The notes under the pieces are model-generated. The model did no database searches, was not told where the DNA came from, and saw only the letters and a program-made list of their open reading frames with translations. This document shows, piece by piece, positions 40,993 through 42,339 of a DNA stretch of 64,000 nucleotides. Made by a program: the position numbers and the translations under genes. Numbering within the stretch: position 1 is the first letter of the stretch; every line of letters starts with the position of its first letter. Source of the stretch: Candidatus Scalindua japonica (GTDB taxonomy: Bacteria; Planctomycetota; Brocadiia; Brocadiales; Scalinduaceae). The stretch covers positions 124,001 to 188,000 of the forward strand of contig NZ_BAOS01000010.1 of NCBI RefSeq assembly GCF_002443295.1, written 5' to 3'.

Positions 40993-41934
40993 TTAATCCT
41001 TGTCTGCCAGACCTGGGTATTGTTCCATAAGGGGATTTTTGTCCAGATTAACGTGAGTCTGTTCTTTAAGTGCTTTCCTGAGATACTTCGGAAGGTTAAA
41101 GAGCGCCTGGTGGGTAATACCATCATAGAATCTCAGTTCTGAATTGACCCTCTCAGAAATCCTGCGGTCTATCTTTTCAGGGCTTATCTGGGCAGGATCC
41201 AGGTCGTTTGTGGCGAGACAGAATCCCCATAGCAGGGCGAATGATGGCACGTACGCGGCATATGGAAATACATTAGGAAATACCGCTTGAAGCGTTTTAC
41301 TGAGAACGGTATATGTTTGTAGAGCTACTGGTGAAGTTGTGCTTGCCTGGATAGACAATACACCATGAGGTGTAAGCTTCTGTTTTACAAGAGCATAGAA
41401 TTCTTTAGTAAATAGCTTGTAAGCGGGACCCTCTTCCAGTGGGCAGGTAATATCCATTATTACAGCATCAAACTCTTCATCAGAGTCCTCAATGAATTTG
41501 CGACCATCACCGAAAGTAAGCACTGTCCTTTTATCTGAAAAGCAGCCATTATGAAAGGTCGGCAGGTACTTTTCCGCACATTCCACCACTTTTTCATCAA
41601 TGTCCACCATCATAGCCTTGTTGACTGTCTTATGATGGAGGACTTCTCTCAATGTAGCACCCTCACCACCACCTATAATAGCTACTTTTTCTGGTTCAGG
41701 ATGCATTATCATAGCAGGCTGTACAAGCGCTTCGTGATAGATAAACTCATCCAGTTCAAACGATTGGAATTCATTATCAAGAATAAGGCATCTGCCAAAA
41801 TTGTGAGTTTCGGCTACTACTATCTCCTGGATATCTGAATTTCCATGGTATATTGTACCTTTAATGGCATGTTTATGAACTTCAGAAGGGCTGAAATAGT
41901 CGTAAATCCATCGTGAAGGAAGGTCTTTTTTCAG
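40993..41934 (-). CDS. speE: Spermidine synthase-like aminopropyltransferase, probable CTG start
   Basis: This protein transfers an aminopropyl group from decarboxylated AdoMet to a diamine in the cytoplasm. The Rossmann core has AIIGGGEGATLREVLHH and VDIDEKVVECAEKYLP, with the catalytic region DAVIMDITCPLEEGP. The N-terminal beta domain is also encoded (SRWIYDYFSPSEVH, later IVVAETHNFGRCLILDNEFQ). It lies upstream of the first ATG (41712), where no ATG, GTG or TTG exists in frame. The upstream codons run directly in frame from the speD TAG stop. A CTG at 41932-41934 follows AGAGAGG by 7 bases and gives 313 residues, a normal length. The alternative is translation through the TAG. Confidence 0.85.
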   Translation of the reverse strand: MKKDLPSRWIYDYFSPSEVHKHAIKGTIYHGNSDIQEIVVAETHNFGRCLILDNEFQSFELDEFIYHEALVQPAMIMHPEPEKVAIIGGGEGATLREVLHHKTVNKAMMVDIDEKVVECAEKYLPTFHNGCFSDKRTVLTFGDGRKFIEDSDEEFDAVIMDITCPLEEGPAYKLFTKEFYALVKQKLTPHGVLSIQASTTSPVALQTYTVLSKTLQAVFPNVFPYAAYVPSFALLWGFCLATNDLDPAQISPEKIDRRISERVNSELRFYDGITHQALFNLPKYLRKALKEQTHVNLDKNPLMEQYPGLADKD

Positions 41935-41946
41935 TTGTTTGCCTCT

Positions 41947-42339
41947 CTAAGTAGTTGTAGACAACGCTTTAGAAAGCATTGTCTCCTTGATAAATGGTGA
42001 ACCCCTTTTTATCTCAACGGAAGTGTGCTCTTTTGGCCCAAAACCATCCAGCAGCCTCTTAACGGCTATTTGAGGATCAGCTACAGTTCCACAAGTAAAT
42101 ATATCAGCAGCCACATAGCCTTCTATAGGCCACGTATGAATTGAAATATGTGACTCTGATAAAATAGCTACAGCAGTTATTCCCGGAGGATCAAACTCGT
42201 GGTGAATAGATTTGACTACAGTCGCGCCGGCATCATTTGCAGCATCACACATAATTTGTGTTATCTTTTCCGCATCATCAAGGATTTCCCTGTTACAATC
42301 CCACATCTCAACTAAAAGATGTCGTCCGAATGCTTCCAT
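41947..42339 (-). CDS. speD: S-adenosylmethionine decarboxylase proenzyme
   Basis: This 130-residue prokaryotic class enzyme makes decarboxylated AdoMet for the adjacent aminopropyltransferase. It self-cleaves to form a pyruvoyl cofactor at the Ser of LSESHISIHTWP. GRHLLVEMWDC at the start and YVAADIFTCG after the cleavage site are typical. A G-rich ribosome site precedes the ATG. Its stop codon is in the same frame as speE and overlaps the speE ribosome site. Confidence 0.95.
   Translation of the reverse strand: MEAFGRHLLVEMWDCNREILDDAEKITQIMCDAANDAGATVVKSIHHEFDPPGITAVAILSESHISIHTWPIEGYVAADIFTCGTVADPQIAVKRLLDGFGPKEHTSVEIKRGSPFIKETMLSKALSTTT

Follow-up and report, generated by a model that had tools for sequence, protein, structure and literature searches.

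Candidatus Scalindua comprises marine anammox bacteria. The window, the whole 64,000-nucleotide stretch of the Candidatus Scalindua japonica genome analysed here, carries speD and speE side by side on its minus strand. The speD gene (positions 41947-42339) is an open reading frame that begins with ATG, ends with a TAG stop at 41949-41947, and encodes a 130-residue AdoMet decarboxylase proenzyme; it matches TIGR03330 with 137 bits, against a cut-off of 75.65, as well as PF02675, and the predicted protein is of the short class of AdoMet decarboxylase. The speE gene (40993-41934) encodes a polyamine aminopropyltransferase (spermidine synthase) of 313 residues when counted from a CTG codon. SpeE scores 268.1 bits against the full-length family profile NF002010 (cut-off 260) and 236 bits against TIGR00417, slightly below that profile's cut-off of 249.55, and it matches PF01564 together with the N-terminal tetramerisation domain PF17284, the latter from residue 13 of the frame. 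The same genome contains two more aminopropyltransferase-like genes, at G000:C4:245989-246633 and C44:13979-14611, in open frames of 524 and 822 codons, respectively. A literature search for Scalindua polyamine genes found no paper.

The first-pass annotation of this DNA had claimed that speE lacks a standard start codon, and this is borne out: the earliest ATG, GTG or TTG in frame is an ATG at 41712-41710, codon 75 from the CTG, which is not credible as the start of speE because it lies beyond the N-terminal domain. Following the speD TAG, the minus-strand frame reads AGA GGC AAA CAA CTG AAA AAA GAC CTT CCT TCA CGA TGG ATT TAC. The 78 codons that had been counted between the TAG and the first ATG, with no ATG, GTG or TTG among them, are present as described, and they are genuine SpeE sequence given the position of the PF17284 match and the alignment with relatives from the CTG onward. 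As the annotation had also stated, the CTG, at 41934-41932, stands 7 nt after AGAGAGG (41948-41942), which overlaps the speD stop. This AGAGAGG is a Shine-Dalgarno sequence; its duplex with the 16S tail has an energy of -6.4 kcal/mol, at a spacing of 6-7 nt. The codon preceding the CTG is CAA (41937-41935).

We searched for speE in all 13 Candidatus Scalindua genomes examined and in four other genomes of the family (G013-G016). The gene was found in 12 of the 13 genus genomes and was absent from G006, a genome that is 86% complete. CTG occupies the exactly homologous codon in 11 of these 12 (G000-G005, G007-G009, G011 and G012), that is, in 10 of 11 when the window genome, G000, is set aside. 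SpeE identity to the window protein falls to about 73% among the CTG genomes. Each of the 11 has AGGGGA, AGGGA, GGGGGA or AGAGAGG upstream of the CTG; ten of them show a spacer of 6-7 nt, and in G008 the longer duplex gives 4 nt. The codon before the CTG is AAA in the ten CTG genomes other than the window. The first ATG, GTG or TTG lies 39-95 codons inside speE in nine of the 11; the other two have a TTG at codon 14 (G002) and an ATG at codon 5 (G009), the latter at a poor distance from the Shine-Dalgarno sequence. The single exception within the genus, G010, reads ATG CTG AAA AAA, and the four family outgroups likewise bear their ATG at the preceding codon, with CTA, TTA, TCA and TTA, respectively, in the CTG column. 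Because ATG stands at this position in G010 and in G013-G016, the ancestral start was an ATG one codon upstream of the present CTG. Viral contigs were also searched for relatives, and none were found.

From this comparison we infer, with a probability of about 0.9, that translation of speE begins at the CUG at 41934-41932 and yields a protein of its own, 313 residues long. The first-pass annotation had left two outcomes side by side, initiation at the CTG or readthrough of the speD TAG to yield a SpeD-SpeE fusion protein. The conserved CTG, the spacing of its Shine-Dalgarno sequence, and the ATG of the outgroups strongly support the former outcome; the latter, which we regard as very improbable, draws what support it has from the window, where the two genes share a reading frame that no other stop interrupts, from G009, which is also in frame after a TAG, and from the report that in E. 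coli polyamines stimulate readthrough of UAG in the rpoS mRNA (PMC7177335). The in-frame arrangement that had been noted is true of the window, but it is not conserved among relatives: the speD stop is TAG or TAA, and the offset from that stop to speE in the CTG genomes is 0 in the window and G009, 1 in seven genomes, and 2 in G003 and G005. A single base inserted between stop and CTG distinguishes G005 from G002, with the Shine-Dalgarno sequence and AAA-CTG intact. Moreover, speD lies 148 nt from speE in G008 and 368 nt away in G003, and both genomes keep GGGGA, then CATAAA or GATAAA, then CTG, a unit that readthrough leaves unexplained. A search of five genus genomes for the pyrrolysyl-tRNA synthetase PylS, as a sign of pyrrolysine decoding of TAG, gave no match reaching the family cut-off. 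Judged by these arrangements, readthrough is not the conserved mechanism, and the varying frame, the detached genes of G003 and G008, and the lack of a PylS match over the cut-off mark the in-frame TAG of the window as incidental, perhaps a local accident arising from recombination at the speD/speE junction.

Two other readings would place the start elsewhere. Initiation might take place at another non-standard codon near the CTG, such as AAA, or at an ATT further down. We consider this improbable, since in all 11 genomes no NTG codon other than the CTG is usably spaced from the Shine-Dalgarno sequence. The ATT, which is codon 10, is over 30 nt away from that sequence, and G005 and G009 have ATA in its place. 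An odd start codon in a draft genome might also suggest that a normal start is masked by a mistake in sequencing or assembly, with relatives bearing ATG at the same place. The relatives instead share the CTG at the homologous codon, and the identical codon recurs in 11 separate assemblies, among which are named records from different studies; an error is therefore excluded.

The components expected for initiation at the CUG are those of ordinary translation. The window genome carries the 16S tail GGATCACCTCCTTT, for which the calculated duplex energy with the purine stretch upstream of speE ranges from -4.8 to -8.4 kcal/mol among the CTG genomes and from -3.9 to -7.6 kcal/mol among the ATG genomes. 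An initiator-like tRNA with another anticodon was considered and rejected: the initiator anticodon-stem pattern gave three matches, the sole tRNA among which is an ordinary CAT initiator. Given this tRNA, the 16S tail and the Shine-Dalgarno pairing, we expect that the Shine-Dalgarno sequence 6-7 nt upstream places the initiator tRNA (CAU anticodon) on the CUG with a first-position mismatch, and that SpeE would begin with fMet despite its CUG start. E. coli initiates poorly at CUG; structures determined using a variant initiator tRNA show CUG initiation complexes in frame 0, with lower stability than complexes on AUG, GUG or UUG (PMC11497404). Within Scalindua the ancestral ATG was lost, its place now being held by AAA or CAA, and initiation would have passed to the CTG that follows. 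Termination and reinitiation from speD may tentatively be supposed to help speE where the genes are close: with speD ending 1-15 nt before the CTG, finishing ribosomes could contribute, whereas with a detached speD the Shine-Dalgarno sequence alone would have to suffice. Also tentatively, selection might keep the weak start in order to hold SpeE synthesis low or responsive.

Is the CTG, then, kept by selection? Its C is unchanged in 11 of 11 genomes, although A, G or T at that position would give a standard start. By comparison, pairwise fourfold differences in speE reach 0.60 and, in the same 11 genomes, 44 of the 45 fourfold sites containing any C vary; among the 22 fourfold sites at which C is the majority base, one is invariant and 11 have A in some genome. 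The invariant C thereby hints at constraint, with a chance under neutrality of roughly 1 in 20 to 1 in 45 for what is a single site. Two other leucine columns in speE are also invariant CTG, and codons 6-7 (CCT, TCA) are invariant as well, so part of the invariance could stem simply from constraint close to the 5' end. That the CTG is tolerated rather than selected, with a good Shine-Dalgarno sequence making up for an ATG whose loss in an ancestor was nearly neutral, has a chance only a little short of even; it concerns why the CTG is used, not whether it is. Stronger Shine-Dalgarno sequences are reported to compensate weak starts (Belinky et al. 2017, PMC5622118), and the duplex energies of the CTG and ATG genomes show a weak tendency only, but a single substitution would suffice to bring back ATG, GTG or TTG at that codon and is seen in none of the 11 genomes, while neutral C sites nearly all vary. 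A further possibility, rather unlikely in our estimation, is that selection maintains the CUG of speE across Scalindua as a control element, a deliberately weak start used more or less according to polyamine level, such that spermidine synthase would regulate its own synthesis. In E. coli, the binding of fMet-tRNA at UUG and GUG starts is enhanced by polyamines (PMC7177335), which makes a polyamine-responsive CUG start on spermidine synthase a testable idea.

In the rpoB tree the genus forms one clade (support 100/99), both halves of which use CTG, with G010 nested in one half. In the speE tree G010 stands beside the other half, and the speE of the window falls with the first. Across positions 40993-42339 the trees therefore disagree, speE grouping with one Scalindua lineage and SpeD, in keeping with rpoB, with the other. 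This discordance suggests that the lineage of the window underwent recombination at the speD/speE junction, an event that would also explain the unusual spacer there. Parsimony requires two changes at the start codon in both the rpoB and the speE tree. The leaders of the two halves of the genus, GGGGATATAAACTG and GGGAATATAAACTG, are closely similar and share the ATG-to-AAA change, and for these reasons the CTG seems likelier to have arisen once, with regain or replacement in G010, than twice. A short repeat, TCCTCGGCGYYTTTTGTCCGGGGAAA, partly in tandem with a 27-nt period, lies in the enlarged spacers between speD and speE of G003 and G008 (L004 and L014); it occurs up to 93 times per Scalindua genome at no more than 2 mismatches (the reversed control gave none) and is also found at G010:C76:9614-9774 and G000:C4:413182-413234.

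The idea that CTG starts are commonplace in this genome was considered and rejected after codon usage had been scanned across 464 kb of it (227 predicted genes). The scan, which misses CTG starts with an early internal NTG codon, identified two genes with more than about 25 coding codons before any ATG, GTG or TTG, and speE alone stood out besides one interrupted-looking gene. The latter is a sugar nucleotidyltransferase-like reading frame (G000:C4:29934-30785, minus strand) that directly follows a TGA and has 84 coding codons before a standard start; it is probably an interrupted gene. Among close relatives, AUG-to-CUG start switches are extremely rare, numbering 2 among 61,358 ancestral AUG starts, and GUG and UUG starts revert to AUG at rates of 0.040 and 0.017, respectively (PMC5622118).

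The putative CUG start of speE is a conserved feature at the level of the genus; CUG initiation itself is already known, and what sets this case apart is the comparative support for it in a housekeeping gene. Few natural CUG starts in bacterial housekeeping genes have such support, and speE has it, with an ancestral ATG, probable takeover by the next codon, and long persistence. The gene, whose product, spermidine, itself affects initiation, offers a test case for selection on weak starts. Where automatic annotation admits ATG, GTG and TTG as its only starts, SpeE would be truncated or misplaced in Scalindua.

Fused SpeD-aminopropyltransferase proteins exist elsewhere and, like the Scalindua locus, have the two activities encoded side by side; the Scalindua locus, in contrast, has two distinct genes, in a relative frame that varies among genomes. 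In enterobacteria the AUU of infC is a non-AUG start conserved for regulation. It resembles the speE start in that a near-cognate codon is kept across species with a normal Shine-Dalgarno sequence in front, and it differs in that speE has CUG, encodes a polyamine enzyme, and has a regulatory role for its start that is only putative. The AUG-to-CUG switches described among close relatives by Belinky et al. (PMC5622118) share with speE the end state of a CUG start preceded by a Shine-Dalgarno sequence, whereas in speE the start appears to have moved to the next codon, with the CTG lasting in 11 genomes. Finally, class 2 of the polyamine modulon (cya, cra, gshA and others; PMC7177335) combines, as speE does, an inefficient start, a normally placed Shine-Dalgarno sequence, and a gene tied to polyamines; members of that class use UUG or GUG whereas Scalindua speE has CUG, and the likeness is one of start codon class and Shine-Dalgarno spacing only.
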